DNA of 64,000 nucleotides from Burkholderiales bacterium (GTDB taxonomy: Bacteria > Pseudomonadota > Gammaproteobacteria > Burkholderiales > Casimicrobiaceae): NCBI GenBank assembly GCA_905339295.1, contig CAJPFI010000017.1, positions 1 to 64,000 on the forward strand, read 5' to 3'. Positions 3,722-25,718 of this stretch are shown piece by piece. A model generated the notes under the pieces. It saw only the letters and a program-made list of their open reading frames with translations, searched no databases and was not told the origin of the DNA. The number at the start of each line of letters is the position of its first letter. Positions within the stretch are counted from its first letter, which is position 1. The position numbers were made by a program, and so were the translations under genes.

Positions 3722-3867
3722 CCTCGATGCTGCCGGACGTGCGCGTGCACCGGCTTCCGGGCGGCGACCACGTCGAGGCGCTCGCCTCGCCGGAGCGTGT
3801 CGTCGGCCGGATCGCGCATTTCCTCGCGGACGTGGACACCGCGCGCATGTGGCGCGCCGCGGCGTGA
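3688..3867 (+). pseudogene. Possible C-terminal remnant of an alpha/beta hydrolase
   Basis: The plus-strand frame ending at 3867 reads PALLDGLASMLPDV, then HRLPGGDHVEALASPERVV, then a final helix (GRIAHFLADVD). This looks like the last strand, the catalytic-His loop (GGDH) and the terminal helix of an alpha/beta hydrolase. No nucleophile elbow or N-terminal core precedes it in any frame, so it is interpreted as a truncated leftover of about 60 codons. Confidence 0.35.
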
Positions 3868-4030
3868 ACCGGGGAGGGCGCCGATGAGCGTCCCGGGCCC
3901 GTCGCGGCGCACGCGGCGCATGCCCGGGGCGAGGTTCGCGCCCGGCGCATCCCGCGGTTCGCGGCGGAACTCGCGTGCCTCGCCGCGATGAGGATGCTCG
4001 CCGGCTGCGCGGCGGCTTCCTGGCCCGGGG

Positions 4031-7000: not shown

Positions 7001-7885
7001 CGACGCGTCGGCCGAGGTCGGGTCGACCGCGAACACGAGGCCCTGCGCCTCGGCCGCCTCGATCACGCGCCGCGTCACGACGCCGGCGCCCGCATCGATC
7101 GTCGCCACGACCTCGGCGCGCCCCGGGATCGCGATGCGCTCGACCGCCGAGAGCCGCTCGAGCTTCTCGGTGTTGATGACCGCCGAGCGCGGCGTGAGCG
7201 GGCACGCGCCGCCGGTGTAGCCGGTGCCGCCGCCACGCGGGATGATCGTGAGGCCGAGCTCGATGCAGCCTTCGACCAGCCCCCGCACCTCGTCCTCGCT
7301 GTCCGGCGTGAGGACGACGAACGGGTACTCGACGCGCCAGTCGGTCGCGTCGGTCACGTGCGACACGCGCGAGAGCCCGTCGAATGCGACGTTGTCGCGA
7401 TGCGTGTGGCGGCCGAGCACGCGCCGCGCGCGCTTGCGCAGCTCCCCGGTCTCGGCGAACGACGCCGCGAAGCGGTCGATCGCGCGCGACGCGGTCGCCG
7501 CGAGCGTGGCGACCTTGGCGTCCCGGACGGCGTCGGCGCCGGACTGCGCCTCGCGGCGCTTCTCGATCTCGGCCATGCGGTGGCGCATCGCCTCGACCAG
7601 CAGCGCGAGCCGCCGCGGGTTCTCGGTGAGGTCGTCCTGCAGGTACGGATTGCGCTCGACGACCCAGATGTCGCCCAGCACTTCGAACAGCATGCGCGCC
7701 GAGCGCCCGGTGCGCCGCTCGCCGCGCAGCTCGTCGAGGACTCGCCATGCCTCGGCGCCGAGCAGGCGGATGACGATCTCGCGATCGGAGAACGACGTGT
7801 AGTTGTACGGAATCTCGCGCAGGCGCGGCGCGTCCGCACCAGCGGCGGCGTTGGCGGAAACGAAGCGGTCGGCCACGGCATTCAT
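4031..7885 (-). CDS. FAD-binding and Fe-S oxidoreductase, DUF3683 type (GlcD-GlcF-like fusion)
   Basis: A fused dehydrogenase of about 1284 aa. An N-terminal DUF3683 region begins near [20 protein letters not shown]. It is followed by the PCMH-type FAD-binding fold ([15 protein letters not shown], about residue 215; [10 protein letters not shown]) and the FAD-oxidase C-terminal domain ([25 protein letters not shown]). Next are two 4Fe-4S motifs near residues 815-890 ([23 protein letters not shown]) and a GlcF-like part with two CCG-type motifs (FPGCGSE...CCGYP near 1028; DPCH...CCGESG near 1153). Such proteins oxidise 2-hydroxyacids and pass electrons to the respiratory chain; the substrate here is unknown. 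The start chosen is ATG 7885 (MNAVADRF); ATGs at 7900 and 7939 are alternatives, none with a strong ribosome-binding site. Confidence 0.9.
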
Positions 7886-8047
7886 GTCGACGACGATCAT
7901 ACCGCAGCGCAACAAGGGACGCCGGAAATGCTGCGCCAAGTCCTTGATGTCAGTAGGGATCCGCGCGCGCCGCTGCGGCCGCCCTCGGGGTTCGGCGCGA
8001 GACGGAGGACCTGCGCGATGCCCGGCGCAACGAAGCCGTGGAGCGTC

Positions 8048-8329
8048 CTACCGCTTCCCCTGCCGCTCGGCGATGACCTCGGCCATCGCGCCGACGCTGG
8101 GACAGGCGAACAGGTCGCGCGGCGACAGCGCCACCGCGAAATCGCGCTGCACGCGCGAGATCACCGCGAAGGCATGCAGCGATTCGCCGCCCAGATCGAA
8201 GAAGTCGTCGTCCATCCCGATCGGTGAGATCGCAAGCACGTCTTCCCAGGCGCGAACCAGACGTGCCTCGAGCGCATTGCGCGGCGCAACGTACCCGGTT
8301 TCCAGCGGAGGCCGGGCGCCGGGCGTCAC
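8048..8329 (-). CDS. Free-standing acyl/peptidyl carrier protein of the NRPS-PKS locus
   Basis: A 93-aa discrete carrier protein. The core motif DDDFFDLGGESLHAF at about residues 40-54 contains the Ser (GGES) that should receive the 4'-phosphopantetheine arm. It is close in sequence to the carrier domain at the end of the neighbouring PKS (both have ISPIG-DDDF-DLGG), suggesting duplication. It is last on the minus-strand operon; its GTG start overlaps the thioesterase stop by four bases (GTGA), which implies translational coupling. It could carry a starter unit, an extender or the finished chain. No dedicated phosphopantetheinyl transferase lies nearby. Confidence 0.85.
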   Translation of the reverse strand: MTPGARPPLETGYVAPRNALEARLVRAWEDVLAISPIGMDDDFFDLGGESLHAFAVISRVQRDFAVALSPRDLFACPSVGAMAEVIAERQGKR

Positions 8330-9096
8330 GCGTGTTCCTCGAGCACGCGGCCGAGAATGCGTCCGACCGCCTCGACGTGCGGTGGCCGCAGCATCGAGAA
8401 CGTGTCGCCCGGCACCATCCGGCGCGTGAGCACGCCCGCCGCGATGTGCGTCCAGCGGTCGTCGACCGGGATGTCGGCGGCCCCGGTCTGCAGCAGGTGG
8501 ACCGGTGCACGCACAGGACGGGCGCGGTACCTGACCCCGGCATCGACGTGAAGCACGAGCATCGCACGCAAGCGCTCGAATACGTCGGGGCCGAGCGCCG
8601 GGTAGCTCCTAAGCGTTCGCTCGACCAGGCCTTCGAGGACGCTGCGCAGCGAGGGCCCGAACGCGTCGGGCGTGGCAGGCAGCTCGGCATCGCCCGGCCC
8701 GGGACCTTCGGTGGCGAGCAGCGGCGCGATCGAATCCAGCATCGCCAGGCACGAGACGCGCGCCCCGCGCGCCTCGAGCCGCAACGCCATGTCGAGGGCG
8801 ACCGCGCCGCCCAGGCAGTGCCCACTCAGCAGGTAGGGGCCGTGCGGCGCGACCGCGACGAGTTCCTCGACGTAGGCGCCGGCCATCGCCTCGAGCGTTT
8901 CGTGCGGCGGACGGTCGTCCTCGAGGCCCGCGTACGCGAACGCATGGACGGGTCGTGGCGGTGCGATCGAGCGCGCGAGGCGCACCAGCGAAAGCGGCGT
9001 CGTCCCGGCCGACGGCACAAGGAAGCACGGCGTCCCGGCCCTGCCCGGCGTCAACGGGCAGAGGAGCGGTGGCAGCCGCGGGCCCGCCACGCTCAT
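8326..9096 (-). CDS. Thioesterase with a Cys nucleophile, NRPS-PKS locus
   Basis: A 256-aa alpha/beta-hydrolase thioesterase of the type found with NRPS and PKS systems. After FLVPSAGTTPLSLVRLA comes the nucleophile elbow SGHCLGGAVALDMAL at about residues 91-105, where Cys replaces the usual Ser of GHSxGG. An Asp (CLAMLDS) and a late His (RPPHVEAVG) complete a plausible triad. The start is the ATG at 9096; the longer frame upstream overlaps the PKS gene out of frame. It lies 79 nt after the PKS stop and could release product from the PKS carrier or edit mis-primed carriers (type II role). Expression is probably coupled to the downstream carrier protein. Confidence 0.85.
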   Translation of the reverse strand: MSVAGPRLPPLLCPLTPGRAGTPCFLVPSAGTTPLSLVRLARSIAPPRPVHAFAYAGLEDDRPPHETLEAMAGAYVEELVAVAPHGPYLLSGHCLGGAVALDMALRLEARGARVSCLAMLDSIAPLLATEGPGPGDAELPATPDAFGPSLRSVLEGLVERTLRSYPALGPDVFERLRAMLVLHVDAGVRYRARPVRAPVHLLQTGAADIPVDDRWTHIAAGVLTRRMVPGDTFSMLRPPHVEAVGRILGRVLEEHA

Positions 9097-9175
9097 CGCG
9101 ATGCACCGTCGCGCGGATCCCGATGCCCGGCAGCGCAGGTCGCGATCGGCGCGCGTCTCCCCGACGGCGTCGAGG

Positions 9176-12100
9176 TCATACGGTCGCGGGCGTCGCCGCG
9201 GGGGCCCCGTGGTGACGTTTCGCGATAAGCCGCGCCAGCGCCGCGATCGTGGGCTCGGCCAGAAACTCGGTGTTCTTGATGCGCAGGTCGAAGTCCCGGT
9301 GGATGGCGTGCTGAATCTGGATCGCCTCGATCGAGTCTCCGCCGAGGTCGATGAAATCGTCGTCGATGCCGATCGGCGAGATGCCCAGCGTCTTCTCCCA
9401 CAACCCGGCGAGCGCCTTCTCGACGTCGGTCTCGGCCGCCCGGTACGCCGTGGCCAGGTGCTCGCGTCCGCGCCCTTCGCCGGCCACGCGGGACCGCATC
9501 GCGGTCGTCCCGACACCTTCCGCGGCCGTGCCCATCGCGAGCACGTAGGACGGGGACTCGCTCCACGACAGGATGCGCCGGAAGACGTCGAGCCCCCACT
9601 CGACCGGGACCCCGGAGCCGTATCGCTCCTCGAACGCGCGTGCGATCGCGGCGCGCGTGCTCGTATCCGCGCGAACCTGGAAGACGATCTTGCCGATGTG
9701 CTGCGCGCGCGCCATGCGGCGGAATCCCTCCTCGGCGCGCTCGAACGGCATGACGGCCGTGGGGATCGGCACGAGCTCGCCGCGCGCGAAACGGTCCATC
9801 AGCGCGTCGAACATCGCGGGCAGCATCGGATGCCGCGCGTCGACGATCGTGCCGAGGTCGAACGCCGTGAACGACAGGTTGCGGAGGAACGGCGCGAGGC
9901 CCAGCTGCGTGCCGGCGAGGAGATCGCGCTTCCCGATCTCGATGAAGCGCCCCTGCGAGCGCAGCAGGCCCAGGCTCGCCGGGATGAACTCGCCGGCGAG
10001 CGCGTTCAGCACCACGTCGACGCCCTCGCCCCCGGTGGCCGCGCGGATCTCGTCGACGAACGCGAGCGACCTCGAGTCGTAGACGTGCTTCACGCCGAGC
10101 GAGCGCAGGTAGTCCCGCTTGTCCGGGTGGCCGGCGGTCGCGTGGATCTCGGCGCCCCTGAGGCGCGCGATCTGGATTGCCGCGAGGCCGACGCCGCCGG
10201 CCGCCGCATGGATCAGGACGCGCTCGCCGGGCGCGACGCGCGCCAGCGTCTCGAGGGCGTATTGCGCGGTCAGGAAGACGATCGGCAGGCCCGCCGCGCG
10301 GTTGAAGTCGAGGTTCGCGGGCATCGCGACGACGCTGTGCGCGCCGGTCGTGGCATGCGTGCCGAGCGACGAGCGCGCGACGGCGACCACCGCATCGCCG
10401 ACGGCGAGGTGCCGCACGCCGGGCCCGACCGCGCTGATCACGCCGCTGCACTCGCCGCCGGGCGTCATGCCGTCGGCGACGTGAGGCATCTGCCCCAGTG
10501 CCGAGAGCACGTCGCGGAAGTTGAGGCCGGCGGCGCGCACCTCGATCTGCACTTCGCCGGGCCCGGGCTCGCGCGGCGTGAACGCTGCGACGCGAAGCGA
10601 ATCGAGCTCGCCGAGTTCACCGACGACGACCTGTCGCGGACCCGTGCCTTCGCTCTCCCGGGCATGTCGCCGCTCGTGGCTCGCCTGGTCGAGTTGCGAG
10701 CCGGCGAACGGGCGCATCACGTAGCCTTCGATCTCGACCAGCGTGTTGCCGTCGGGATCGGCGATCGTGATGTCCGTGGCGATCGATGTCCCCATCGCCC
10801 GATGGGCAGCGACGGCGAGCACCTCGGGCGCGAGCCCCGCGAAGAAGCGGATGCAATCGTAGGTGTGCGGAATCGCCTCCTCGTGGATGGCGCGCGACCC
10901 GCCGGCCGTCGCGCCGTCCATGAGCGCCGGGTGCACGTCGAACTCGTCGAGGTCGCCGACGAACTCGGCCGGAAGCACGAGCCGCCCCCACGGCCGGCCG
11001 TCGTGCTCGCTCTCCTGCCGGCGCCACTTCCACCGCGGTCCGCCCGACAGATGCACGTTGCCGAACGGCGGATTGGCCGGGCGCCCCTGCCAGCTCTCGC
11101 GCGGCGGGAGGGGCGGAAGCGGGCGCGGCGTCGCCGAGGTCCGTCGCGCATAGCCGCTCGAATGCTCCTCCCACTCGTCGCGCGTGCCGAGCGGGCGCGA
11201 GCGCAGCGTGAACCGCTCGTCGTCGCGGGAGGCCGCGAAGCGAAGCTCGATCTCGGTTCCCTGCTCCGCGGTGAACAGCGGCCGCTGGAATGCGACGCGC
11301 GTTAGCTCGACCGCACCCGTTCCGGTCGAGTGGTCGAGGAACGCGGTGCGGGCAAGCTGGACGTGCGTCGTGCCCGACAGCAGCGGGTATCCGTCCAGCC
11401 GGTGGTCGTCCACCAGCCAGTGGCCGCGGCGCAGCACGCCACGGTACACGATGTCGCCGTTCTGCTCGCGCGCGCGCGCCTTGAGGATCGGGTGGTCGAG
11501 GTGATCGAACGCGACGTCGCGCGCACTGCGGCCACGCGAGGCCGCGCGCTCGGCGCCTGCATCGAGCGAGTGGCGCAGGCGGTCCGCCGCGAGGCCGACC
11601 TCCTGCCACGGCCCCCAGCCGATGGCGCACGAGAGCCCCGGCGACCGCCGCGCCCGGTTCTGCGCCAGCGCGTCGAGCACGGCGTTCGCCGCCGCGTAGT
11701 CGACCTGCCCCGGCTCCGGAAACTGCGACGCCTGCGACGAGACGTGCACGAAGCAATCGAGCGGCTCGTCGGCGACGAGCTCGTCGAGATGGAACGCGCC
11801 CATCACCTTCGCGCCGAACACGCGCGCCGCGGCCTCGCGCGTCTTTTCGATCACCGGGCTCGGCTGCAGCGCGCCGGCCGCATGGACGACGCCATGCAGT
11901 GCGCCATAGCGCGCCCGGGTCGCCTCCAGCGCGCGCGCGACTTGCGCGCGATCCGCGGTGTCGCACGCGACGATGAACACCTCCGCGCCGCGCGCGCGCA
12001 GGGCGAGGACCGCGGCGAGCGAGCGACCGATCCTGTCGTCGCGCTTCGCACGCTCGGGCCAAGCCTCCTCGGGCGGCGGCGTCCACCGCGCGGTGAGCGC

Positions 12101-15100
12101 GAGGCGCGCGCGACAAAGGTCGAACAGCGAGCCGGCGAAGACCAGCCCGAGGCCGCCGGTGCCGCCGGTGATCAGGACCACGCCGCCCTCGCGAAGTCGC
12201 GGCGCCGACTCGGCCAGCGCCGGGATCGCGTAGAGCTGCTCCGCATGGCGCGCGCCCGGTCGCAGGCACACGAGCGCCGGCGCGCCCTGCACGCCGGACT
12301 CGCCGAGCACGGCATCGGTCAGCCAACCGGGCACCGCAGCATCGTCGTGGCTCGGAACGTCGACGACGCGCATGCGGAGCCCTGGAATCTCGAGCGGGAT
12401 GTCGCGGCTCGCGCCCAGGAGCGCCGCCTTCTCGGCGTGGCGCTGGCCGGGTTCGCCGTCCAGCTTCGCGATTCCGTCGCCGACCACCAGCACGTCGAGG
12501 CCGTGGCATATGCCCTGGTCGTGCGCGGCCTGCGTCAGCGCCACCAACGAGTGGAAGCCCGCGCGCGACGCCGTGTCGAATGCCGCCGCGGTGTTGTGCG
12601 GACCCGCGGTTCCGGTGATCGATCCGAGGTGGACGACGTGCGGCACTTTCCCGGCGCTCGTCGCCATGCAGCGGGCGAACACCTCGCTCCAGTCCTCGCG
12701 CGCATCGGGGCGGATGCGGAACCGATGCTCGTCGATGCGCTCGAACGCATCGCCTGGCACGAGCGTCATGACCGGGACGCCATCGGCGGCGAGCCGGTCG
12801 CGCAATGCGGCCGCGAGGCCCGGCTCCGCGCCGAGGACGATCCGCGGACGCGCGCGATCGGGCGGAGCCTCGGCGGAGAGCGGATCTTCGCGGAAGCCGC
12901 GCTCGTAGAGCATCTTGCGCGTGTCGGGCGGGGGGCTCGCTTCGCCGTCGCGCCAATGACGGATGCGCTGGAACGGGTAGGTGGGCAGCGTAACGAGGTC
13001 GCGCCGCTCGCCGGCTTCCGCGGCGCGCCAGTCGACGTCGACGCCCGCGCACCACAGGCCGCCGAGCGCCGCGCGTGCCGCCGCGCCCTCGCCGTCGCGC
13101 GATGTCGTTGGCAGGGCCGCGAAGACACGCGCCTGCGCGTCGTGCCTGCGGATCAGGTCGCCGAGCGCGGAGCCCGGGCCCAGCTCGACGAACGCGGGAT
13201 GGGACAACGCGAGCAGATGCTCCGCGCCCGGCGAGAAGCGCACCGGATGGCGGATGTGGTCGGACCAGTAGACGGGATCGGTCGCCTGCGCGGCCGTCAG
13301 CGGAACGCCCGTTGCATTGGAGATCACCGGGATCGTCGGCGCGGAAAGGGTGATGTCGGCGAGCACGCGCGCAAACGCGGGCAGCGCCGGTTCCATCATC
13401 CGCGAATGGAACGCATGCGAGGTCTCGATGCGTTGCGTACCGACGCCTTCGCGTTCGAGCGCCTCGCAGAAGTCCGCGACAGCCGGGGTCGGACCGGACA
13501 CCACCGAGATCGACGGCGCATTGACCGCGGCGATCTCGAGCGCAGCGGGGAGCCGCGGCGCGAGCTGCATCTCGGGCAGGAAGACGGCGGCCATCGATCC
13601 CGGCTCGCAATCCTGCATCAGCCGTGCGCGGGCCGCCACCAGCTTCAGGCCATCGGCGAGCGAGAACACGCCCGCGAGGCACGCCGCCACCAGCTCGCCC
13701 AGCGAATGGCCGAGCATCGCCGCGGGAGTCACGCCCCAGGACATGAACAGGCGCGCCGTCGCGTAGCCGACGACGAAAAGCGCGGGCTGCGCATTGGCGG
13801 TGCGGCGCAGGAACTCGCCGTTGTCGGCGTCGGCGCCGCGCGACTCGCCGTATCCCAGCAGCGCGCGGATGTCGACGTCCAGCGCGGGCGCGAGCGACTC
13901 CGCGCATTCGTCGACGATTCCGCGGAACAGCGGTTCCGCCGCGTAGAGCTCCCGCCCCGCGCCGCGCCGCTGCGATCCCTGCCCCGGAAACAGGAACACC
14001 GGCGTGGCGCCGGACGCAGGGGCGACGTCCGACGCAAGGGGACGGCGGAACGTGCGCCCGGCGGATGCCAGCGTCGGCCCGTCCGCGAGGAAGCATGCGC
14101 GGTGCGCGAACGCGCGGCGCCCGACCTGAAGCGTGTGCGCGACATCGGCTGCGAGGAGCTCGGGGTGGCCGTCGAGGTGCGCCTGGAGGTCGCCGACGCG
14201 ACGCGCGAGCGCCGACTGGCTGCGGGCGGAGACGGGCAACAGCGGCATCCCGCGCGACGAGGGACGCGACGGCTCGGGCCGATGCTCTTCGAGCACCACG
14301 TGGACGTTCGACCCGCCGAAGCCGAACGACGAGACGGCCGCGCGCCGCGGCGCCGATCCCGCGTCCCAGCGGCGCGCGTCGGCATGGACGAAGAACGGGC
14401 TCCCGGCGAAATCGATGCGCGGATTCGGGCGACCGAAGTTCGCGAGCGGCGGCAGCGTGCGATGCTCCAGCGCGAGGCAGGCCTTGATCAGGCTCGCGAC
14501 GCCGGCGCCGCAACGCAGGTGACCGACGTTCCCCTTCACCGATCCCAGCGAGCAGAATCCGGTGCGGCCGGTGTGGCGCCGGTAGACCTCGGTCAGCGCC
14601 GCGACCTCGACCGGATCGCCGAGTCGCGTTCCGGTGCCGTGCGCCTCGACGTAGCCGATCGTGTCCGGCGACACGCCGGCGTCGCGCAGCGCCGCCTCGA
14701 TCGCGATGATCTGGCCTTCGGCGCTGGGCGCGACGAAGCTTTCCTTGCCCGGCGGGTTGCCGTCGTTGCTCGACGCCGAGCCGCGGATGATCGCGTGGAT
14801 CGGATTGCCCGCGGCGAGCGCATCGGCGAGCGGTCGCAGCGCCACCACGCCCGCGCCGCTGCCGAAGATCGTCCCGTCGGCCTCCGCGTCGAACGGCCGC
14901 AACCGTCCGGATGGCGAATGCATGCCCTCGACGCCGGCGATGTATCCGGAAACGCGCGGCAGCAGGATGGTCGAGCCCCCGGCCAGCGCGACTTCGCATT
15001 CCCCGCGACGAAGGCTCTGCACCGCGAGGTCTACCGCCATCAGCGACGTGGCGCAGGCCGCCATCACGCCGAAGCTCGGCCCGGTCAGGTCGAGCTTGTG

Positions 15101-15622
15101 CGAGACCCGCGTCGTCAGGAAATCGAGCGAGTTGCCGATGCGAACGGGCAGGCTCAGGCCGACATCGCGGCGCACCTCGTCGTTCGTGTCGAGCACCAGC
15201 TGCTGGTAGTTGCCCTCGTATCCGCCGAAGACCCCGGTGACCGGCGCCGACCTTCCGGGTACGACGCCCGCGCTCTCGAGGCACTCCCAGGCGCACTCGA
15301 GGAACAGGCGGTGCGCCGGATCGGTGAGCCCCGCCTCGCGCGCGGACATGTCGAAGAACTCGGCATCGAAATGCTCGACGTCGTCCAGCGTCGGCTTCGC
15401 GCACACGTAGTCCGGATGCGAGAGGACCTCCTGACTCACCCCGGCGAGCCTCAGCGCCGCGGCCGTGGGGCGGCTCAGGCAGTCCCGGCCTTCGACCAGG
15501 TTGCGCCAGAAGCGCGCGAGCGTGGTCGCTCCGGGCACGCGCAGGCTCATGCCGATCACCGCGATCGGCGCGGCGGGCGAGGTTCCGGCGGGCGTTGCGG
15601 GCATGTCCGAGGATTCGTTCAT
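9176..15622 (-). CDS. Type I modular PKS, one fully reducing module: KS-AT-KR-DH-ER-ACP
   Basis: A 2148-aa single-module polyketide synthase. KS (about 1-440) has its Cys near residue 190 (MAACATSL) and both His motifs (EAHGTGT, GNVGHL). AT (about 515-830) has GHSLGE near 636 and HAFHS, which predicts malonyl-CoA. KR (about 1140-1340) has GGTGGLG near 1150 and the S/Y/N set (HVSSQAS, DYAAAN) but no LDD motif. DH (about 1375-1670) has His at DDHRLDG near 1407 and Asp at HPALMDG near 1566. ER (about 1690-2010) has AAAGGVGLAA near 1811. ACP has GGDS near 2097. The order KR-DH-ER is unusual; modular PKSs normally run DH-ER-KR. There is no loading module and no internal TE; a separate TE gene follows. 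Confidence 0.93.
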   Translation of the reverse strand: MNESSDMPATPAGTSPAAPIAVIGMSLRVPGATTLARFWRNLVEGRDCLSRPTAAALRLAGVSQEVLSHPDYVCAKPTLDDVEHFDAEFFDMSAREAGLTDPAHRLFLECAWECLESAGVVPGRSAPVTGVFGGYEGNYQQLVLDTNDEVRRDVGLSLPVRIGNSLDFLTTRVSHKLDLTGPSFGVMAACATSLMAVDLAVQSLRRGECEVALAGGSTILLPRVSGYIAGVEGMHSPSGRLRPFDAEADGTIFGSGAGVVALRPLADALAAGNPIHAIIRGSASSNDGNPPGKESFVAPSAEGQIIAIEAALRDAGVSPDTIGYVEAHGTGTRLGDPVEVAALTEVYRRHTGRTGFCSLGSVKGNVGHLRCGAGVASLIKACLALEHRTLPPLANFGRPNPRIDFAGSPFFVHADARRWDAGSAPRRAAVSSFGFGGSNVHVVLEEHRPEPSRPSSRGMPLLPVSARSQSALARRVGDLQAHLDGHPELLAADVAHTLQVGRRAFAHRACFLADGPTLASAGRTFRRPLASDVAPASGATPVFLFPGQGSQRRGAGRELYAAEPLFRGIVDECAESLAPALDVDIRALLGYGESRGADADNGEFLRRTANAQPALFVVGYATARLFMSWGVTPAAMLGHSLGELVAACLAGVFSLADGLKLVAARARLMQDCEPGSMAAVFLPEMQLAPRLPAALEIAAVNAPSISVVSGPTPAVADFCEALEREGVGTQRIETSHAFHSRMMEPALPAFARVLADITLSAPTIPVISNATGVPLTAAQATDPVYWSDHIRHPVRFSPGAEHLLALSHPAFVELGPGSALGDLIRRHDAQARVFAALPTTSRDGEGAAARAALGGLWCAGVDVDWRAAEAGERRDLVTLPTYPFQRIRHWRDGEASPPPDTRKMLYERGFREDPLSAEAPPDRARPRIVLGAEPGLAAALRDRLAADGVPVMTLVPGDAFERIDEHRFRIRPDAREDWSEVFARCMATSAGKVPHVVHLGSITGTAGPHNTAAAFDTASRAGFHSLVALTQAAHDQGICHGLDVLVVGDGIAKLDGEPGQRHAEKAALLGASRDIPLEIPGLRMRVVDVPSHDDAAVPGWLTDAVLGESGVQGAPALVCLRPGARHAEQLYAIPALAESAPRLREGGVVLITGGTGGLGLVFAGSLFDLCRARLALTARWTPPPEEAWPERAKRDDRIGRSLAAVLALRARGAEVFIVACDTADRAQVARALEATRARYGALHGVVHAAGALQPSPVIEKTREAAARVFGAKVMGAFHLDELVADEPLDCFVHVSSQASQFPEPGQVDYAAANAVLDALAQNRARRSPGLSCAIGWGPWQEVGLAADRLRHSLDAGAERAASRGRSARDVAFDHLDHPILKARAREQNGDIVYRGVLRRGHWLVDDHRLDGYPLLSGTTHVQLARTAFLDHSTGTGAVELTRVAFQRPLFTAEQGTEIELRFAASRDDERFTLRSRPLGTRDEWEEHSSGYARRTSATPRPLPPLPPRESWQGRPANPPFGNVHLSGGPRWKWRRQESEHDGRPWGRLVLPAEFVGDLDEFDVHPALMDGATAGGSRAIHEEAIPHTYDCIRFFAGLAPEVLAVAAHRAMGTSIATDITIADPDGNTLVEIEGYVMRPFAGSQLDQASHERRHARESEGTGPRQVVVGELGELDSLRVAAFTPREPGPGEVQIEVRAAGLNFRDVLSALGQMPHVADGMTPGGECSGVISAVGPGVRHLAVGDAVVAVARSSLGTHATTGAHSVVAMPANLDFNRAAGLPIVFLTAQYALETLARVAPGERVLIHAAAGGVGLAAIQIARLRGAEIHATAGHPDKRDYLRSLGVKHVYDSRSLAFVDEIRAATGGEGVDVVLNALAGEFIPASLGLLRSQGRFIEIGKRDLLAGTQLGLAPFLRNLSFTAFDLGTIVDARHPMLPAMFDALMDRFARGELVPIPTAVMPFERAEEGFRRMARAQHIGKIVFQVRADTSTRAAIARAFEERYGSGVPVEWGLDVFRRILSWSESPSYVLAMGTAAEGVGTTAMRSRVAGEGRGREHLATAYRAAETDVEKALAGLWEKTLGISPIGIDDDFIDLGGDSIEAIQIQHAIHRDFDLRIKNTEFLAEPTIAALARLIAKRHHGAPAATPATV

Positions 15623-15814
15623 GGGGAGGGGCTGTTACGGCCGGACCGGAGATGTCGCCGGACGCCGATTCGTTCGACGCGGATGGTACTGAGCCACGAC
15701 GCGGAACGCACGCCGTGCGGCAAAAGTAGTGGCGTGCGTACGCCGCGGCTCCCCCCGCTCCGTCCGGCCGGGAGACATCCTTCGCGCGTCCGCGTCGGGC
15801 TCGGCACCCGCCTG

Positions 15815-18800
15815 TTACGCCGGCACCTCGGACGCACGCTCGACGACGCCGCCGATCACGCGCGCGAGTTCCGCGAGATGGCGGGTGATCATCGTGACAT
15901 GCCCACCCGGGAGGACGTGGCCCTCCCAGGTCCGCACGAATCGGGACCATCCCGCGTCGGGCGCGGCAGCTCGCCACTCCTCCGCCTGCACGACGACCGC
16001 ATGGCCGTCCAACGGCGCGCCGGCGTAGGCGTCGATCGCACGAGTGTAGCGCAACTCGATCTCGGACAGGCGGTCGCGCGACGCGAGCACGTGCGCCCGC
16101 CCCGCGGCGTCGAACTTGACGTACGTGCCGCCGGCGGACGGCTCGGCGCCCGGTGCAGGCGCGCGCGACTCGATCAGCACGACGGCGGGGACCGCGTCGC
16201 CCGCGGCGACGAGCTGGCGCGCCATCTCGAAGGCGACCAGGGCGCCGTTGCAGTGCCCGCCGATCACGTAGGGCCCCGCGGGCCGGAACGTGCGCAACGC
16301 ACGGATGCGATCGGCGGCCATCGCCTCGATCGTCTCGGGCACCGCGTCGCCGGTGAGCCCGTGCGGATGCACGATCAGCGTCGGCTGATCGGGGCCAAGG
16401 GCGCGTGCCAGCGCGAGACTGTAGAAGCCTCCTGCCTGGAAGTCCCCGTGCAGGAACACGAACGGGGGTCTCGATCCCCGCCCGTTGACGACGACGATCG
16501 GCGCGTTCGCATCGGGCGCCCCGTCGCGCAGCGCATTCGCAAGGCCGGCGATCGTGTCGTCGGCGAACATCGCCGTGAGCGGCACGGCAAGCCCGGTCTC
16601 GCGCTCGATCGTGTCGACGAGGCGCGCGGCGAGCAGCGAGTGGCCGCCGATCTCGAAGAAGTGGTCGAACACGCCGATGCCGCGGATCCCGAGCAGGTCC
16701 TCCCAGATGCGGACGAGCACGCCTTCGAACATGTCGCGCGGCGGGACCGGGACGCCGTCGGCCGGACGCGCCGTGGCGCCGGGCTCCGGCAGCGCGCGAT
16801 GGTCGACCTTGCCGTTGGCGGTGAGCGGCAGCGCCGGCATCCAGACCGTCGCCGCGGGAAGCATGTAGTCGGGAAGCACGCGGCGCAGGTCACGGCGCAG
16901 GTTTGCCGGGGGCGGCCCCCCGGCGTTCGCGGACACGAGCCACGCGACGATCCGGCGCGTATCCGTGGTCGCGCCCCGAGCGAGCACCACCGCGTCGCGC
17001 ACGTAGGGAAGCCGCGCGATCGCGCTTTCGATCTCGGCGAGCTCGATGCGGTGACCGCGGATCTTCACCTGGCGATCGAGGCGTCCCATGAACTCGACGG
17101 CGCCGTCCGCGCGGCAGCGCGCGCGGTCGCCGGTGCGGTAGAGCCGGGCGGCAGGATCGGCGTCGAACGGGTGCGGCACGAACCGCTCGGCGGTGAGCTC
17201 CGGCGGGCCGAGGTAGCCGCGCGCGAGACCCGGCCCGCCGACGTGGATCTCGCCCGGGACGCCGACAGGGACCGGCTCGCGCTCGCCGTCGAGGATCACC
17301 ACCTCGGTGTTGGCGATCGGCCGGCCGATCGGGATCGTCGCCCGCTCGGCGTCGTCCGCGCGCACCTCGTGCCAGGTCGCGAACGTCGTCGCCTCGGTCG
17401 GGCCGTAGACGTGCACGAGCCGCGCGGGCGGTCCGGCGCGCATCACGTCGCGCACCCACCGCGGCTCGACAGCCTCCCCGCCGAACAACACCTGCCGGCA
17501 GCCCGCGAACGCGTCGGGGACCTCCCGCGCGACCGCGTTGAACAACGCCGTCGTCAGGAAAAGCGTCGTCACGCCGTTCGCGCGCAGCGCCGCGGCGAGC
17601 GATCGCGGCGCGAGCGCGGTGGCCTTGTCGACCGGCACGAGGGACGCGCCGTTGAGCAGCGCGCCCCAGATCTCGAACGTCGCCGCGTCGAATGCCGGGT
17701 TCGAGAGGTGGGCCACCACGTCGTCCGGGCCGAGCCGCACGTAGTCGGTGCCGCACACGAGGCGCACGACGGCGCGGTGCGGAATCAGCACGCCTTTCGG
17801 GTTGCCGGTCGAGCCCGACGTGTACATCACGTACGCGATGTCGTCGGCGCGGCCTCCGGTCTCGACGTTGCCGCCGCGTCGCCGCGCGATCCGCGTTGCG
17901 TCGCGGTCGATGCAGACGACGCGATGGCCGCCGACCGGCAGGCGCGACGACAGGCGCTCCGTCGTGAGCACCAGCGTGACCGACGCGTCCGCGAGCATCG
18001 CGCGCAGCCGCTCGACGGGAACCTCCGGGTCGAGCGGCAGGTAGGCGGCTCCCGCCTTGAGGGTCGCGAGCAGGCCGACGACGAGGTCCGATCCGCGCTC
18101 GAGGCAGACGCCCACGCGCCGCGGCGAGTCCAGCCCGGCGGCGTCGAGTTCGCGAGCGAGCCGGTTCGCCCGCGCGTCGAGCTCCCGGTAGGAGAGCGGC
18201 CCGTCCGCGTCGACCACGGCGACGGCGTCCGGCCGCACCGCGGCCTGGACCTCGAACAGCCGCTCGATCCGCGCCGTTTCCGGGTAGGGCGACCGCGTGC
18301 GCGTGCCTTCGGCCAGGCGCCGCTCGCGCTCCTCCGCGTCCTGGAGCGCCAGGCGCCCGATGCGCTGCCGCGGATCGGTCACGATCGACGAGAGCAGCGT
18401 CCTGAACTGGAGCGCCATGCGCTCGACGGTCGGCGCCTCGAACAGCGAGACGGCGAAGTCGATGCTTCCGCGAAGCACGCCCGCGGCTTCAGTCAGCGTG
18501 AGAGACAGGTCGAACTTCGCGTCGTCGCCGCCGAGGCCGTCGATCTCCTCGACGATCAGCCCGGGCAGGCGCCATGGCGCCTGCCCCGCGTTGTGCAGCG
18601 CGAACGACACCTGGAACAGCGGATGGCGCGATGCCGTCCGCACGGGCGCGAGCTCCATCACGAGCTTCTCGAACGGCAGCTCCTGATGCTCGTACGCCTC
18701 GAGCGCACGCCGACGCACGCGGCCGAGCAGCACGTCGAACCCCGGCTGGCCGCTCAGGTCCCCGCGCATCACGAGCATGTTGACGAAGAATCCGATCAGC

Positions 18801-19672
18801 GGCTCGAGCTCCGGCTCGCTGCGCCCCGCGATCGGCACGCCCACCGCGATGTCCTCCTGGCCCGTGTACCGGTGCAGCAGGACGTGGAAGGCCGCGAGCA
18901 GCGTCATGAACAGCGTTGCCCGCTCGCGCCGGGCGAGCTCCTTCAGCCGTCGCGTGAGATCGGCGTCGACGACGAACGTTACACGCGCGCCGGCGTGATC
19001 CGGCCTCGGCGGCCGCGGGCGGTCGGTCGGCAACTCGAGCTCCGGCAACCCTGCCAGCGCCCGCTTCCAGTACGCCACCGGCTTCTCCAGCGCATCCCCT
19101 TCGAGCCTCCCGCGCTGGCGTACCGCATGGTCGGCGTACTGCATCGGCAGCTCGTGCAGCGGCGACGGCCGTCCGGCATGGAAAGCGCCGTAGAGCGCGG
19201 CGAGCTCCGCCCACAGCACGCCCGCCGACCACGCGTCGGTGACGATGTGGTGCATCGTCAGCAGCAGCCAGTGCTCGGTGTCGCGCAGGCACACGAGCCG
19301 CGCCCGCAGCAGCGGCCCTTGCGCGAGATCGAAGCGCGCGCGGCGCTCCTCCTGCGCGAGGCGCCGGGCCGCCGTCTCGCGCTCGGCCTCCGGCAGCGCG
19401 CGCAGGTCCTGCACGTCGAGCGGGACGACGGACGCCGGCACGACCACCTGCACCGGCTGCGCGTCCTCGAGCATGTACCGCGTGCGAAGAATCGCGTGCC
19501 GCCGGACCACTTCGTTCAGCGATCGGCGCAGGGCGTCCCGGTCGAGCGTCCCCGACAGTCGCAGCGCCTGCGGCTCGTTGTAGACCGACTCACCCGGGTA
19601 CAGCCGGTCGAGCAGCCACAGCCGCTGCTGGGCAAACGACAACGGAGCGGATCGCGCGGTGTCCGGAGTCAT
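15815..19672 (-). CDS. Nonribosomal peptide synthetase, C-A-T-TE
   Basis: A single-module NRPS of about 1285 aa. The condensation domain (about 8-450) has HHIVTDAWS near residue 139. The adenylation domain (about 480-960) has YTSGSTGNPKG near 612, GEIHVGG and NGKVDHRALP. The thiolation domain has GGHS near 1010, and a thioesterase has GHCNGA near 1139 with a late GGHV. The ten specificity residues read approximately D-A-F-F-L-G-V-T-F-K, resembling aliphatic (Ile/Val-like) codes; this was aligned by eye. The TE nucleophile is Cys. The start is taken at ATG 19672 (MTPDTARSAPLSFAQQ) because C domains begin here; ATGs at 19708 and 19825 are in frame. A C domain first in the line suggests acylation of the amino acid by an upstream acyl donor. 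No MbtH gene is seen. Confidence 0.92.
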   Translation of the reverse strand: MTPDTARSAPLSFAQQRLWLLDRLYPGESVYNEPQALRLSGTLDRDALRRSLNEVVRRHAILRTRYMLEDAQPVQVVVPASVVPLDVQDLRALPEAERETAARRLAQEERRARFDLAQGPLLRARLVCLRDTEHWLLLTMHHIVTDAWSAGVLWAELAALYGAFHAGRPSPLHELPMQYADHAVRQRGRLEGDALEKPVAYWKRALAGLPELELPTDRPRPPRPDHAGARVTFVVDADLTRRLKELARRERATLFMTLLAAFHVLLHRYTGQEDIAVGVPIAGRSEPELEPLIGFFVNMLVMRGDLSGQPGFDVLLGRVRRRALEAYEHQELPFEKLVMELAPVRTASRHPLFQVSFALHNAGQAPWRLPGLIVEEIDGLGGDDAKFDLSLTLTEAAGVLRGSIDFAVSLFEAPTVERMALQFRTLLSSIVTDPRQRIGRLALQDAEERERRLAEGTRTRSPYPETARIERLFEVQAAVRPDAVAVVDADGPLSYRELDARANRLARELDAAGLDSPRRVGVCLERGSDLVVGLLATLKAGAAYLPLDPEVPVERLRAMLADASVTLVLTTERLSSRLPVGGHRVVCIDRDATRIARRRGGNVETGGRADDIAYVMYTSGSTGNPKGVLIPHRAVVRLVCGTDYVRLGPDDVVAHLSNPAFDAATFEIWGALLNGASLVPVDKATALAPRSLAAALRANGVTTLFLTTALFNAVAREVPDAFAGCRQVLFGGEAVEPRWVRDVMRAGPPARLVHVYGPTEATTFATWHEVRADDAERATIPIGRPIANTEVVILDGEREPVPVGVPGEIHVGGPGLARGYLGPPELTAERFVPHPFDADPAARLYRTGDRARCRADGAVEFMGRLDRQVKIRGHRIELAEIESAIARLPYVRDAVVLARGATTDTRRIVAWLVSANAGGPPPANLRRDLRRVLPDYMLPAATVWMPALPLTANGKVDHRALPEPGATARPADGVPVPPRDMFEGVLVRIWEDLLGIRGIGVFDHFFEIGGHSLLAARLVDTIERETGLAVPLTAMFADDTIAGLANALRDGAPDANAPIVVVNGRGSRPPFVFLHGDFQAGGFYSLALARALGPDQPTLIVHPHGLTGDAVPETIEAMAADRIRALRTFRPAGPYVIGGHCNGALVAFEMARQLVAAGDAVPAVVLIESRAPAPGAEPSAGGTYVKFDAAGRAHVLASRDRLSEIELRYTRAIDAYAGAPLDGHAVVVQAEEWRAAAPDAGWSRFVRTWEGHVLPGGHVTMITRHLAELARVIGGVVERASEVPA

Positions 19673-20131
19673 CGCGCGTTTCGGGATTCCGCCGTAGGTC
19701 CCGGGCATCCCGGCGTTGCCTGCCGCCTGGACGCTCGAACGATGCCGGAGCGATTGGCACCGGAGGTCGAACGGGGGTATGCGAGGCCGTGGGAGGCGTT
19801 CGGGAGAGTCGAAGGCATGGAACATCGCGCCGTTGCGCGCGTCGCCGCCTGCGGGCGCGGCATCGGGGCGGGAAGTCGAGCGTTCGGGATGACGCGGCGA
19901 ACGCGCCGGCCCGGAGGATGACGCGGCCCGCCGGGTTCCGCGCGGAAACGGATGCCGAACGACGGCAAGATAGAGCGAGACGTCGGCCGTGTCCAGAGGC
20001 GGCGCGCCTCGATCGCTTCCGCGCGCATGCTGGCGCCTATCGACGTCGCCGGGGCAAACCTGCCGGTCGCGACCCGGATCCGCTCCGGTCGCGACGACGG
20101 CTGCGCGCTGCCGGGACCCGAGGAGCGCCGG
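19673..20131. other. 459-bp intergenic region upstream of the NRPS gene
   Basis: No convincing gene is present on either strand; open frames here have no recognisable protein pattern. It contains one plausible minus-strand promoter (19967-19995) which, if used, would give an untranslated leader of nearly 300 nt for the NRPS-PKS operon. No strong inverted repeats or riboswitch-like elements were seen by eye. Confidence 0.5.
19967..19995 (-). promoter_or_regulatory. Candidate sigma-70 promoter for the NRPS-PKS operon
   Basis: On the minus strand TGGACA (19995-19990, five of six to TTGACA) is followed after 17 bp by TATCTT (19972-19967, four of six to TATAAT). It points toward the NRPS gene and lies in the only long gap upstream. 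The evidence is hexamer similarity alone. Confidence 0.3.
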
Positions 20132-20554
20132 TCACGTCACGATCCGCCGCACACCTTCGGCGACCGCGACATAGCGCGCGAACTTGCCCAGCGCGATCGC
20201 CGCGGCCGCCACGAACAGGTTGTGGCGCAGCCAGCCCGACGCCACGCAGAGCGCGTCGCCGATCAGCGGGACCCACGAGAGCAGCAGCGTCGCCACGCCG
20301 TAGCGCTGCGCAAGGGCAACCGCGCGCGGCGCGAGCCTGCGCCCGCCTTCGGCCGGCAACAGGCGACCGAGGCCGTACGAAGTGAGCCCGCCGAGTGTGT
20401 TGCCGACGGTCGCGACGCCGATCAGGGTCCACGCACCCGCCGACCGATCCGCCACGAGCGCGGCAAGAACGATCTCCGAATTGCCCGGCAGCAGCGTCGC
20501 CGACAGGAAGCTCGACGCGAAGAGCAGCGCGAGGGCGTCGGCCGACGGCGTCAT
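20132..20554 (-). CDS. yqaA: YqaA family membrane protein (DedA/VTT-related)
   Basis: A 140-aa inner-membrane protein with about four hydrophobic segments. It matches the YqaA pattern: LPGNSEIVLAALV at about residues 22-34, a VGNTLGGLTSYGLGR block near 50-65, and RYGVATLLLSWVPLIGDALC near 84-103. The family is a small relative of DedA/SNARE-associated (VTT) proteins; its role is unproven, with lipid scrambling or membrane homeostasis inferred from the superfamily. The ATG at 20554 is chosen because the upstream in-frame sequence is low-complexity and overlaps comM. It sits 25 bp after comM on the same strand and is probably cotranscribed with it. Confidence 0.85.
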   Translation of the reverse strand: MTPSADALALLFASSFLSATLLPGNSEIVLAALVADRSAGAWTLIGVATVGNTLGGLTSYGLGRLLPAEGGRRLAPRAVALAQRYGVATLLLSWVPLIGDALCVASGWLRHNLFVAAAAIALGKFARYVAVAEGVRRIVT

Positions 20555-20579
20555 CGCGGCCGCGCCGATCGGCGGCGCG

Positions 20580-22106
20580 TCAACTCGCCCGCCTGTCCGC
20601 CGTGGCGTCATCGAAGCGCCGGTAGCCGATCGCTTCCGCGACGTGCACCGACGCAATCGTGTCGTCGCCGGCGAGATCGGCGATGGTCCGGGCGACCTTG
20701 AGGATCCGGTGGTAGGCGCGCGCGGACAATCCGAACCGCGCCATCGCGCGCGTCGCGAGCAGTTGCGCGTCCGGCGTCGGCGTGCAGTGCCGCTGCAGCT
20801 CGGCGACCGACAGCCGCGCGTTGCATGCGCGCTGGCGCTCGAGCTGGCGCGAGCGCGCCGCAGCGACCCGCCCGCGGACGCGGGACGAGGTCTCGCCACC
20901 GGGCTCGCCGGCGGCGAAGGCGATCTCGCCGGGCGGCAGCGCGGGCACGTCGATCGCGAGGTCGATGCGATCGACGAGCGGTCCGGAGATGCGGCCGCGG
21001 TAGGCCGCCACGCGGTCGTGCGCGCACCGGCAGCGTCCGCTCTCGTGCCCCAGCCAGCCGCAAGGGCACGGGTTCATCGCCGCGACGAGCTGGAACTGCG
21101 CCGGAAACGTGCTCTGGCGCGCCGCCCTCGAGATCTGCACGACGCCCGACTCCATCGGCTCCCGCAGCACCTCGAGCACACGCCGCTCCCATTCGGGCAG
21201 CTCGTCGAGGAACAGCACGCCCCGGTGCGCGAGCGAGATCTCGCCCGGCCGCGGATGGCTGCCGCCGCCGACGATCGCGACCGCGCTCGCCGTGTGATGC
21301 GGCGCGCGGAACGGACGCTCGCGCCAGCGCGCGGGATCGAAGCGCCCCGCGAGCGAGGCGATCGCCGCGACCTCGAGCGCCTCGTCCTCGTCCAGCGGCG
21401 CGAGGAGCGACGGCAGGCGCCGTGCGAGCATCGACTTGCCTGCGCCCGGCGGACCGCAAAGCAGCAGCGAGTGGCCTCCCGCGGCGGCGATTTCGAGCGC
21501 GCGCTTCGCCTGGTGCTGTCCCCGGACCTCGGCAAGATCCGGCATGTTTGCCGGCGCGTCGCAGGCGGGAACCGCCGCGAGCCTCGCGAGCGGCGTGTCG
21601 CCGGTCAGGTGGGCACAAACCTCCAGCAACGACCGCGCGGGAAGGACCGCGGCATCCGGCACGAGCGCCGCTTCAGCGGCGCTCGCCAGCGGCAGCACGA
21701 ACGCGCGCCCGTCGTGGCGCGCCGAGAGCACCATCGCGAGCGCGCCGCGCACGGCGCGCAATTCGCCGGTCAACGCGAGTTCGCCCGCGAACTCGTGGCG
21801 GTCGAGCGGCGCCGCCGGCACCTGCCCGCTCGCGGCGAGGATGCCGAGCGCGATCGGCAGGTCGAATCGGCCGGACTCCTTCGGCAGGTCGGCCGGCGCG
21901 AGGTTGACGGTGACCTTGCGCGCCGGGAACGCGAAGTTGGCGTTCTGCAGCGCCGCGCGCACGCGGTCGCGCGCCTCGCGGACCTCGGTCTCGGGGAGTC
22001 CGACGAGATTGACGCCCGGCAGCCCGCCGGCGAGGTGGACCTCGACGCTGACCGGCGGCGCCGACAGCCCCGCGAGCGCGCGGCTGCGTACGACGGCGAC
22101 CGACAT
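20580..22106 (-). CDS. comM: YifB/ComM family magnesium-chelatase-like AAA+ ATPase
   Basis: A 508-aa protein with the full ComM layout. An N-terminal ChlI-like (Lon-protease-fold) domain opens MSVAVVRSRALAGLSAP and includes GLPETEVREARDRVRAAL. The AAA+ core follows with Walker A GPPGAGKSMLARRL near residue 215, a Walker B-like region VLFLDELPEW and the C-terminal Mg-chelatase helical domain. ComM is a hexameric helicase that promotes branch migration during natural transformation. Length is normal for the family. The neighbours ubiK upstream and yqaA downstream on the same strand look like a small operon. Confidence 0.92.
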   Translation of the reverse strand: MSVAVVRSRALAGLSAPPVSVEVHLAGGLPGVNLVGLPETEVREARDRVRAALQNANFAFPARKVTVNLAPADLPKESGRFDLPIALGILAASGQVPAAPLDRHEFAGELALTGELRAVRGALAMVLSARHDGRAFVLPLASAAEAALVPDAAVLPARSLLEVCAHLTGDTPLARLAAVPACDAPANMPDLAEVRGQHQAKRALEIAAAGGHSLLLCGPPGAGKSMLARRLPSLLAPLDEDEALEVAAIASLAGRFDPARWRERPFRAPHHTASAVAIVGGGSHPRPGEISLAHRGVLFLDELPEWERRVLEVLREPMESGVVQISRAARQSTFPAQFQLVAAMNPCPCGWLGHESGRCRCAHDRVAAYRGRISGPLVDRIDLAIDVPALPPGEIAFAAGEPGGETSSRVRGRVAAARSRQLERQRACNARLSVAELQRHCTPTPDAQLLATRAMARFGLSARAYHRILKVARTIADLAGDDTIASVHVAEAIGYRRFDDATADRRAS

Positions 22107-22176
22107 GGGGCCCGGCGCGACAGGCGGACGAATCGGGGAATGCGGCCGCGCCGCCCGCCGCCGCCGGCCGGCCTTT

Positions 22177-22422
22177 TCAGCGATCGCCGCCGACGCGGGC
22201 CTCGAGCTCGGCCACCTTCGCCTCGAGGGCGTCGAGCTTGTCGCGCGTGCGCGCGAGCACCTTCGATTGCACGTCGAACTCCGCGCGCGGCACGACGTCG
22301 AGCTTCGCGAGGCCGCCCTGCAGCAGCGCCTTCACGTTCTTCTCGATGTCCTTCGCGGGCGAGGCCTCGATCGCGCGTCCGATGCGCTTGGCGAGGTCGT
22401 CCAGGGTCGCGCTGCTGATCAT
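22177..22422 (-). CDS. ubiK: UbiK-type accessory factor (BMFP/YqiC family)
   Basis: An 81-aa protein from ATG 22422 with a good ribosome-binding sequence (GAGGAG) upstream. The first half holds two amphipathic helices (LDDLAKRIGRAIEASP); the C-terminal half is a coiled coil (KVLARTRDKLDALEAKVAEL) typical of the BMFP domain. In E. coli UbiK is a trimeric membrane-associated factor needed for efficient aerobic ubiquinone synthesis together with UbiJ. Length and architecture match. It is the first gene of the minus-strand group with comM, and diverges from the nitrogen operon across a 375-bp regulatory gap. Confidence 0.88.
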   Translation of the reverse strand: MISSATLDDLAKRIGRAIEASPAKDIEKNVKALLQGGLAKLDVVPRAEFDVQSKVLARTRDKLDALEAKVAELEARVGGDR

Positions 22423-22645
22423 CTCGTGCTCCTCGCCGCGGGCGTGCGTCGATGCGAGCCAGTCTAGCAAACGGGCGCGGCCGCCGCGTTCGGCCGTCCG
22501 GACGATGGGCGATCGAGGTCGCGTGCCCGGGGGCCACGCGGGCATCCGAGGAGCCGCCCCCGGTCCGGCCGCAACGCTGCGCCGGCGGAACCGACGACCG
22601 GACGCGACCACCCGCGCCGCATTGGTGCGAACGCCGCCCGTCGCC

Positions 22646-22660
22646 GCACCGGCGCGGTGC
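22646..22660 (+). promoter_or_regulatory. NtrC-like dyad upstream of torF-glnK-amtB
   Basis: The sequence gcacc-ggcgc-ggtgc is a perfect 5-5-5 dyad matching the NtrC enhancer core (GCACC-N5-GGTGC). It lies 75 bp upstream of the sigma-54 -24 element, a normal enhancer distance. A second half-site (ggtgc) is present at 22624-22628. Confidence 0.5.
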
Positions 22661-22734
22661 GCCCATCGCGCTCCTGTCCGCGCCGCCCGCACGAGAGCCA
22701 TGGCAACCCATTGTTTTCATGTGATTTGCTGCGA

Positions 22735-22750
22735 TGGCACACGAAATGCT
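22735..22750 (+). promoter_or_regulatory. Sigma-54 (-24/-12) promoter of torF-glnK-amtB
   Basis: tggcacacgaaatgct matches the sigma-54 consensus TGGCACG-N4-TTGCW. The invariant GG and GC are exactly 10 bp apart and TGGCAC is intact. The predicted start point is near 22762, about 36 nt upstream of the torF ATG. The location before glnK-amtB is where NtrC/sigma-54 control is expected. Confidence 0.65.
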
Positions 22751-22797
22751 GACGGACCGGGAGCAACCCGCAACCTCCACCCACCGAGGAACCTCTC

Positions 22798-23589: not shown

Positions 23590-23973
<384 letters not shown>

Positions 23974-23983
23974 GGGGACCCTC

Positions 23984-25507: not shown

Positions 25508-25520
25508 TTGTCCGCAACAG

Positions 25521-25712: not shown

Positions 25713-25718
25713 TAGAAT
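25713..25718 (+). promoter_or_regulatory. Candidate -10 element of gshA
   Basis: TAGAAT (five of six to TATAAT) lies 28 nt before the gshA ATG, in the gap after the amtB hairpin. No convincing -35 hexamer is visible at the right distance. Confidence 0.3.

Follow-up and report, generated by a model that had tools for sequence, protein, structure and literature searches.

Comparison with described systems

Several described biosynthetic systems share individual features with the four-gene locus found between positions 19672 and 8048 on the minus strand of the window, i.e. the whole 64,000-nucleotide stretch of contig CAJPFI010000017.1 (Burkholderiales bacterium, family Casimicrobiaceae) analysed here. 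In the direction of transcription, the locus encodes a nonribosomal peptide synthetase (NRPS), a polyketide synthase (PKS), a discrete thioesterase-like protein (TE2) and a discrete carrier protein, all recognised by Pfam. The published systems are compared as they are described in excerpts of the cited papers.

The first two genes have counterparts in ClbB, described as condensation, adenylation and thiolation domains (C-A-T) followed by KS-AT-KR-DH-ER-T, i.e. ketosynthase, acyltransferase, ketoreductase, dehydratase, enoylreductase and thiolation domains (PMC5490422), and in another genome searched (G239). As in the window, the NRPS part of both precedes a reducing PKS module whose domains have the same order; unlike in the window, this NRPS part ends in a carrier and not in a thioesterase domain (TE). 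ClbB was compared by its description only, while the KS of G239 is 47% identical to that of the window, and the 28 kb read in G239 contain no TE2/carrier pair.

The last two genes recall systems in which an aminoacyl group is handed to a discrete carrier. In the coronamic acid route, CmaA activates isoleucine, which CmaE then transfers onto CmaD, a discrete carrier, and from PacP TE0, which is devoid of the typical triad, the aminoacyl group passes spontaneously to the discrete carrier PacH (PMC8748450). CmaE/CmaD and PacP TE0/PacH, compared by description only, thus resemble the window in pairing a transferase or TE-like part with a discrete carrier, whereas the operon of the window adds a C-A-T-TE NRPS and a PKS. 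The miramide, rimosamide and detoxin clusters are small NRPS-PKS hybrids, too; they contain a module for isoleucine/valine, and a C-A-T-TE protein is mentioned for them (PMC9503745). However, their assembly line, as described in that source, consists of A-T-C-A-T-KS and KR-T-TE without an AT and is accompanied by a dioxygenase gene, and because of this difference in architecture a miramide/detoxin-type identity of the locus was rejected.

No characterised match in domain order, architecture or product class was found in the literature covered, which included few subscription papers; this result does not extend to antiSMASH or MIBiG, and the genomes compared come without product annotation. Similarly, no whole-protein equivalog above cut-off occurred among the best 25 of 105 NCBIfam matches of the NRPS or the best 25 of 108 matches of the PKS. 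Within this scope, the statement of the first-pass annotation (made from the DNA letters and open reading frames) that no matching pathway is recognised holds. The pathway is new, but its kind is familiar: its parts and the way they are combined belong to known types, and the PKS domain order has precedents.

A conserved and bounded four-gene unit

The four genes of the locus are the following (ACP, acyl carrier protein domain):

15815..19672 (open frame to 19825), minus strand: NRPS, C-A-T-TE (Pfam Condensation, AMP-binding (+C), PP-binding, Thioesterase)
9176..15622, minus strand: PKS, KS-AT-KR-DH-ER-ACP (Pfam; catalytic motifs read)
8326..9096, minus strand: TE2, discrete thioesterase-like protein of 256 aa; Cys94 (8815-8817) and Asp121 kept, His replaced by Thr232 (8401-8403) (Pfam, alignment)
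8048..8329, minus strand: discrete carrier of 93 aa with the motif LGGESL (Pfam PP-binding)

The NRPS and PKS genes are separated by 192 bp and the PKS and TE2 genes by 79 bp, while the TE2 and carrier genes overlap by 4 bp. Position 19672 is an ATG directly ahead of the C domain. Genes were called with a purpose-written codon-usage script trained on the window's own large genes, which makes some gene starts uncertain; in one relative (G004) the script shortened the NRPS start. Pfam confirmed the domains that the first-pass annotation had given for an NRPS (C-A-T-TE), a PKS module, a separate TE and a free carrier, and all four genes lie on one strand, as stated there. With its C-A-T and KS-AT-ACP sets, intact catalytic residues and one direction of transcription, the locus has the make-up of a hybrid NRPS-PKS cluster, in which the two synthases may act on one product.

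Full-length orthologues of the PKS were found in 3 of 61 genomes (own included), and the same three were recovered among 64 genomes of the family and 22 of the genus; one further family genome matches the PKS over KS-AT only. At E 1e-60, the NRPS has matches in 14 of these 61 genomes. The linkage of NRPS and PKS is conserved in three genomes. In the two relatives, G004 and G015, the NRPS orthologues are 59% and 55% identical to that of the window, respectively, and the PKS orthologues 66% and about 58-59%. The gene order in G015 is comM, a gene for an A-T-TE protein (other strand), VTT, NRPS, PKS, TE2, carrier and DUF3683, and in G004 comM, one other gene (other strand), VTT, NRPS and PKS, after which the contig ends. 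The existence of same-order orthologues in two relatives indicates that this arrangement is not due to chance.

The flanking genes define the edges of the cassette:

20132..20554, minus strand: VTT-domain membrane protein, neighbour outside the cassette (Pfam match below curated cut-off)
4031..7900, minus strand: DUF3683/FAD-oxidase/Fe-S protein, neighbour outside the cassette (Pfam; also at sites without the four genes)

VTT homologues are present in 10 of the 22 genus genomes. In three of them (G001, G016 and G002) the VTT gene lies 82-94 bp from DUF3683 with the four genes absent and nothing in between, and therefore the cassette starts after VTT and ends before DUF3683. For the same reason we rejected VTT as a fifth cassette gene, despite its 4-bp overlap with the NRPS gene in G015; the DUF3683 gene is likewise placed outside, because it is also present at sites that lack the four genes. 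In G003, G007, G009 and G010, a less similar VTT gene (40-43%) was found, with no DUF3683 within the 12-14 kb read. The remaining three of the ten are the genomes that carry the cassette. The four genes are one conserved, bounded unit, predicted to make a small hybrid metabolite, and its distribution may reflect either gain or clean loss. The edges of this orphan pathway are marked by natural empty sites, and with four genes in 11.6 kb it could be expressed as a whole.

None of the seven gene pairs compared (one of them VTT) contains internal stops, and in all seven the second codon positions are the most conserved and the third less so. The codon-position comparison is weak evidence, since the genes have diverged strongly and, at ~72% G+C, their third positions are probably close to saturated. 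The cassette diverges faster than its neighbour genes: identity amounts to 55-59% for the NRPS, 58-66% for the PKS, 48% for TE2 and ~51% for the carrier, versus 88% for DUF3683 (1146 aligned residues, G015). The nearest orthologue also differs by tree, as the C domain of G004 pairs with that of G015 and the KS of the window with that of G004, a disagreement to which either rate differences or recombination may have led.

The PKS and NRPS might be mere neighbours that make two unrelated products, as could be suggested by the 192-bp gap with its weak terminator-like hairpin and by the NRPS, which is self-complete like its paralogues. This is very unlikely, given that the pair has been kept at the same site in three genomes differing by 34-45% at the protein level, and that terminator-like sites are not above chance (2 found, 3.3 expected).

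Order of the assembly line and predicted product

We propose that the assembly line runs from the PKS to the NRPS, i.e. that an acyl chain supplied by the PKS would be joined to isoleucine or valine by the NRPS and released by the NRPS TE; on the sequence evidence we give this proposal an even chance. The PKS would be primed in trans by an acyl-CoA or an acyl carrier, and would add malonyl-derived units and reduce them, perhaps iteratively. From the PKS carrier, or via the discrete carrier, the chain would move to the C domain of the NRPS, which would activate Ile/Val (code match) and form the amide, and the C-terminal Cys-type TE would release an N-acyl-Ile/Val or a derived product. TE2 and the discrete carrier would act as an accessory pair, in which TE2 more likely binds or shuttles an acyl group between carriers than hydrolyses it, while a phosphopantetheinyl transferase (PPTase) encoded elsewhere in the genome would arm the carriers. 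The points weighed most in favour of this order are that the NRPS owns a TE and that related C-A-T-TE proteins are associated with acyl ligases.

The NRPS comprises the following domains:

18323..19651, minus strand: condensation domain, HHxxxD motif = HHIVTDA (Pfam; groups with elongation-type C domains)
16808..18256, minus strand: adenylation domain, code DAFFLGVTF, predicted Ile/Val (Pfam and code extraction)
16529..16717, minus strand: thiolation (peptidyl carrier protein) domain of the NRPS (Pfam)
15854..16414, minus strand: C-terminal thioesterase domain, nucleophile motif GHCNG (Cys), His kept (Pfam and alignment)

The adenylation code, whose positions were placed by GrsA numbering, is the same in every one of the three orthologues; of nine C-A-T-TE proteins of the genus and family, seven have it, and the remaining two have DAFFMGVTF and DAFFIGGTF. 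For a cyanopeptolin synthetase, DAFFLGVTFK is given as the code of OciB-A5 and OciC-A7, and Ile or Val stands at these positions of the peptides (PMC2533009). By this match, the A domain of the NRPS probably activates Ile/Val.

The Cys nucleophile (GHCxG) and the catalytic His of the TE were kept in 9 of 9 aligned members of the C-A-T-TE family. A Cys in GxCxG is shared with the TE domains of ObiF1, SulM and AB3403, the last of which also belongs to a termination module (PMC6668435, PMC11298585). The acidic residue (Glu or Asp) of the NRPS TE is found at the EntF/AB3403 position and not, as in ObiF and SulM, at the other one, hence beta-lactone or beta-lactam formation is not indicated. In particular, a beta-lactam-forming TE of the SulM type, for which a Gln-Cys-Asn motif and an Asp at position II are given (PMC11298585), was rejected, as the aligned window sequence has His-Cys-Asn and its acid at position I.

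Related C-A-T-TE proteins are encoded close to acyl ligases or fused with them, in most cases together with carriers, in the own genome (contigs C10 and C21) and in G001, G004, G015 and G025. These loci resemble the window in the terminal C-A-T-TE, an identical or almost identical A code and the Cys TE, and differ from it in having the ligase, with no PKS or TE2 in the stretches read. For the three ligases scanned (own C10 and C21; G025), the best NCBIfam matches are fatty acid-CoA ligases, below curated cut-offs. In G025, a second C-A-T protein sits between the ligase and the C-A-T-TE, so that the terminal C domain there is probably fed with an aminoacyl chain. The N-acyl aliphatic amino acid offered as one model by the first-pass annotation has gained support from the A code (3/3) and from these relatives, and remains a prediction from sequence.

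A number of observations weigh against the proposed order. In a tree of 60 of 274 C domains, which contained no curated references and whose bootstrap values had not settled, the C domain of the window grouped with those of G025 and G027 (100/95) and stood apart from the acyl-ligase-fed C domains of the paralogues in its own genome, and many of its nearest relatives follow A-T modules. We tentatively take this domain to be of the LCL, i.e. elongation, kind, though it may instead be a starter C domain that accepts acyl chains, as in lipo-initiation NRPSs. Elongation-type C domains are usually fed by aminoacyl or peptidyl donors. The KS offers no secure placement: its three orthologues form a long stem (0.99) and are sister, with weak support (92/62), to a single KS. 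Furthermore, the gene order puts the NRPS ahead of the PKS, as in NRPS-first pathways, and the hairpin mentioned above lies between them. No docking domain was recognised by eye, and no docking-domain program was run. Finally, the last Pro of the dehydratase motif is replaced by Ser in all three PKS orthologues (G239 keeps Pro), and full reduction by the PKS is therefore uncertain.

Some of these features would fit the reverse order, in which an aminoacyl or acyl-aminoacyl thioester is moved from the NRPS to the KS, by the Cys TE or by TE2 and the carrier, the PKS adds one reduced C2 unit, and release is due to TE2 or spontaneous. The succession of NRPS and PKS genes speaks for such a route, as do the PKS of the same domain order directly following an NRPS in G239, the layout described for ClbB and the transfer of isoleucine by CmaE. 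Nevertheless, the NRPS and its paralogues have their own TE with nucleophile and His kept, from which the chain would be expected to leave before reaching the KS, and TE2 is devoid of the catalytic His. Moreover, in a tree of 40 KS rows the three orthologues fall outside a supported set of 29 rows (96/90), among them KSs located after NRPS modules, which is a weak test, the upstream context of several of the 40 rows being uncertain. We consider the NRPS-first route unlikely. The opposite order, which the first-pass annotation had called equally open, has thus been weakened by the TE of the NRPS and its paralogues, while the phylogeny of C and KS domains, from which a decision had been expected, placed the C domain with G025/G027 and the KS on a long stem outside the 29-row set, and did not settle the order.

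The locus offers a compact test case for chain exchange between a PKS and an NRPS without recognised docking parts.

TE2 and the discrete carrier

The separate TE of the first-pass annotation matches Thioesterase in Pfam, but is devoid of the catalytic His. In the alignment, both available TE2 copies (window and G015) have the nucleophile motif GHCLG and the Asp, and carry Thr where every one of the 15 remaining TE rows (two of them the same sequence) has the catalytic His. The two copies are only 48% identical, yet the stretch GDTFSMLRPP is fully conserved. A search of 399 genomes of the order (E 1e-25) detected TE2 in two, each time within the four-gene cassette; this sample may or may not have included G004, whose contig ends after the PKS.

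As the Cys is kept and the His is Thr in both copies, TE2 is probably no ordinary editing hydrolase: the nucleophile-Asp-His triad of a type II editing thioesterase is incomplete in the alignment, and a standard hydrolytic editing role is unlikely. We nonetheless considered that TE2 might be a usual type II editing thioesterase and the carrier a leftover, i.e. that both serve housekeeping only. Its position at the operon end and the Thioesterase match are what such an enzyme would show, and the carrier of G015 has an N-terminal extension that resembles, by eye, the C-terminal subdomain of adenylation domains, as if it were the tail of a lost A-T protein. On the other hand, a Ser-Asp-His triad is what is described for classical type II TEs (PMC8748450), and this counts against such an explanation, as do the Cys nucleophile and the Thr in two copies at 48% identity and the serine motif kept in both discrete carriers. 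We regard this explanation as quite unlikely.

The extension of the G015 carrier, in which Pfam detects PP-binding only, contains a degenerate A10-like stretch with Asn at the lysine position (by eye), and it is absent from the window carrier. This resemblance to A10 points to an origin of the discrete carrier from an A-T protein of which only the tail is left.

More tentatively, and with rather low probability, TE2 and the discrete carrier, whose genes would be coupled in translation, could be a dedicated non-hydrolytic transfer pair that ferries the chain between a PKS and an NRPS for which neither loading nor docking parts were recognised. A Cys protein, a discrete carrier and an A domain predicted to activate Ile recall a CmaE-like aminoacyl shuttle only by analogy. 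Shuttling between carriers needs no degenerate triad, since threonine is described to be shuttled by a type II TE whose Ser-Asp-His triad is ordinary (PMC8748450). The TE2-carrier pair might be the new feature of the cassette and, if such a transfer occurs, it would constitute a further trans-acting way of linking two assembly lines; in any case, TE2 is a compact test case of what a thioesterase fold does without the catalytic His.

The PKS module

The PKS comprises the following domains:

14081..15571, minus strand: ketosynthase with C-terminal linker, active-site Cys and both His present (Pfam and motifs)
13070..13999, minus strand: acyltransferase, HAFH motif (Pfam and motifs)
11600..12184, minus strand: ketoreductase, Ser/Tyr/Asn/Lys present, ahead of DH and ER (Pfam and motifs)
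10700..11494, minus strand: dehydratase, catalytic His and Asp present, HxxxGxxxxP ending in Ser, not Pro (Pfam and motifs)
9677..10633, minus strand: enoylreductase, NADPH motif GGVGLAAIQIA (Pfam and motifs)
9224..9415, minus strand: acyl carrier domain, LGGDS (Pfam and motifs)

The catalytic motifs of KS, AT, KR, DH, ER and ACP are present in all three PKS orthologues. The HAFH motif presumably marks an AT of the malonyl-CoA type. The usual domain order in PKSs is KS-AT-DH-ER-KR-ACP, from which the window PKS deviates by having the KR ahead of the DH and ER. This order cannot be regarded as unique, as a search of 398 genomes, own included, with two candidates scored per genome at E up to 1e-70, revealed matches collinear over KR-DH-ER-ACP in G239 and over KR-DH in G194, and ClbB is described with the same order. 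A close kinship of the KS to the structure 7zma_A was rejected, because the score was the sum of two KS domains (265 + 295 bits); the best single-domain KS match in the structure table is 4wky, with 471 bits. Genome-wide, two AT-domain matches were obtained, one in the window PKS and the other in a 312-aa frame, which is presumably FabD.

Accessory functions and neighbouring genes

Among the neighbours in positions 1..27577, gene calling and Pfam did not reveal any loading module, PPTase, MbtH, tailoring or regulatory gene fitting the locus, and the sole transporter and regulator seen there are an ammonium transporter and its P-II protein. The first-pass annotation, which had seen nothing accessory in or beside the locus, is thereby borne out for this interval, while for the PPTase the absence is true beside the locus only. 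Two PPTase-superfamily genes are encoded in the genome, both away from the locus. One is a discrete 246-aa protein, above the Pfam cut-off and below that of its best NCBIfam model, HetI. The other is an AcpS-like domain (G000:C6:320615-320872, L085) that follows a ketosynthase-like gene and whose frame continues into an apparent lysophospholipid acyltransferase (by eye). No MbtH match was found genome-wide (the source assembly comprises 4.03 Mb in 60 contigs and is 98% complete), which does not support an MbtH-dependent NRPS.

One regulatory candidate was noted:

19967..19995, minus strand: promoter-like site upstream of the NRPS (consensus match only; 1 found in 7700-20800 versus 0.3 expected)

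The upstream neighbours encode the VTT-domain protein, a Mg-chelatase/ComM-like protein, BMFP, a Gcw_chp protein, P-II and the ammonium transporter. Downstream are located the DUF3683/FAD/Fe-S protein, a frame that matched nothing in Pfam or NCBIfam at E 0.01, and a DUF255/thioredoxin-like protein. Further away, a run of membrane-protein genes (27733-34988, plus strand) resembles, by eye, a multisubunit cation/proton antiporter operon. The A-T-TE protein between comM and VTT, with a Ser nucleophile and encoded on the other strand, is present in G015 and G001 (L119 15774-18419 (+); L133 447-2957 (-)) and absent from the window.

The same genus holds several NRPS loci that share the Ile/Val-TE ending and differ in the feeder. 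One of them, in which acyl ligase-carrier proteins precede a C-A-T-TE whose A code is identical or similar, is common to the own genome, G004, G015 and G001 (L115 = G000:C10:31000-50000, 9502-17209; L120, L121, L122). The C10 locus adjoins an L-asparaginase II gene (Pfam), and L-asparaginase II and rpoE/rseA/rseB-like genes were seen by eye beside the NRPS locus in C10, G004 and G015; the contig of G001 ends there. TctC-type substrate-binding genes occur among NRPS and acyl ligase genes in L116 (G000:C21:141000-160000) 7111-13535, L118 14392-15369, L120 and L121, the assignment being confirmed by Pfam for L118 and made by inspection of the sequence for the others.

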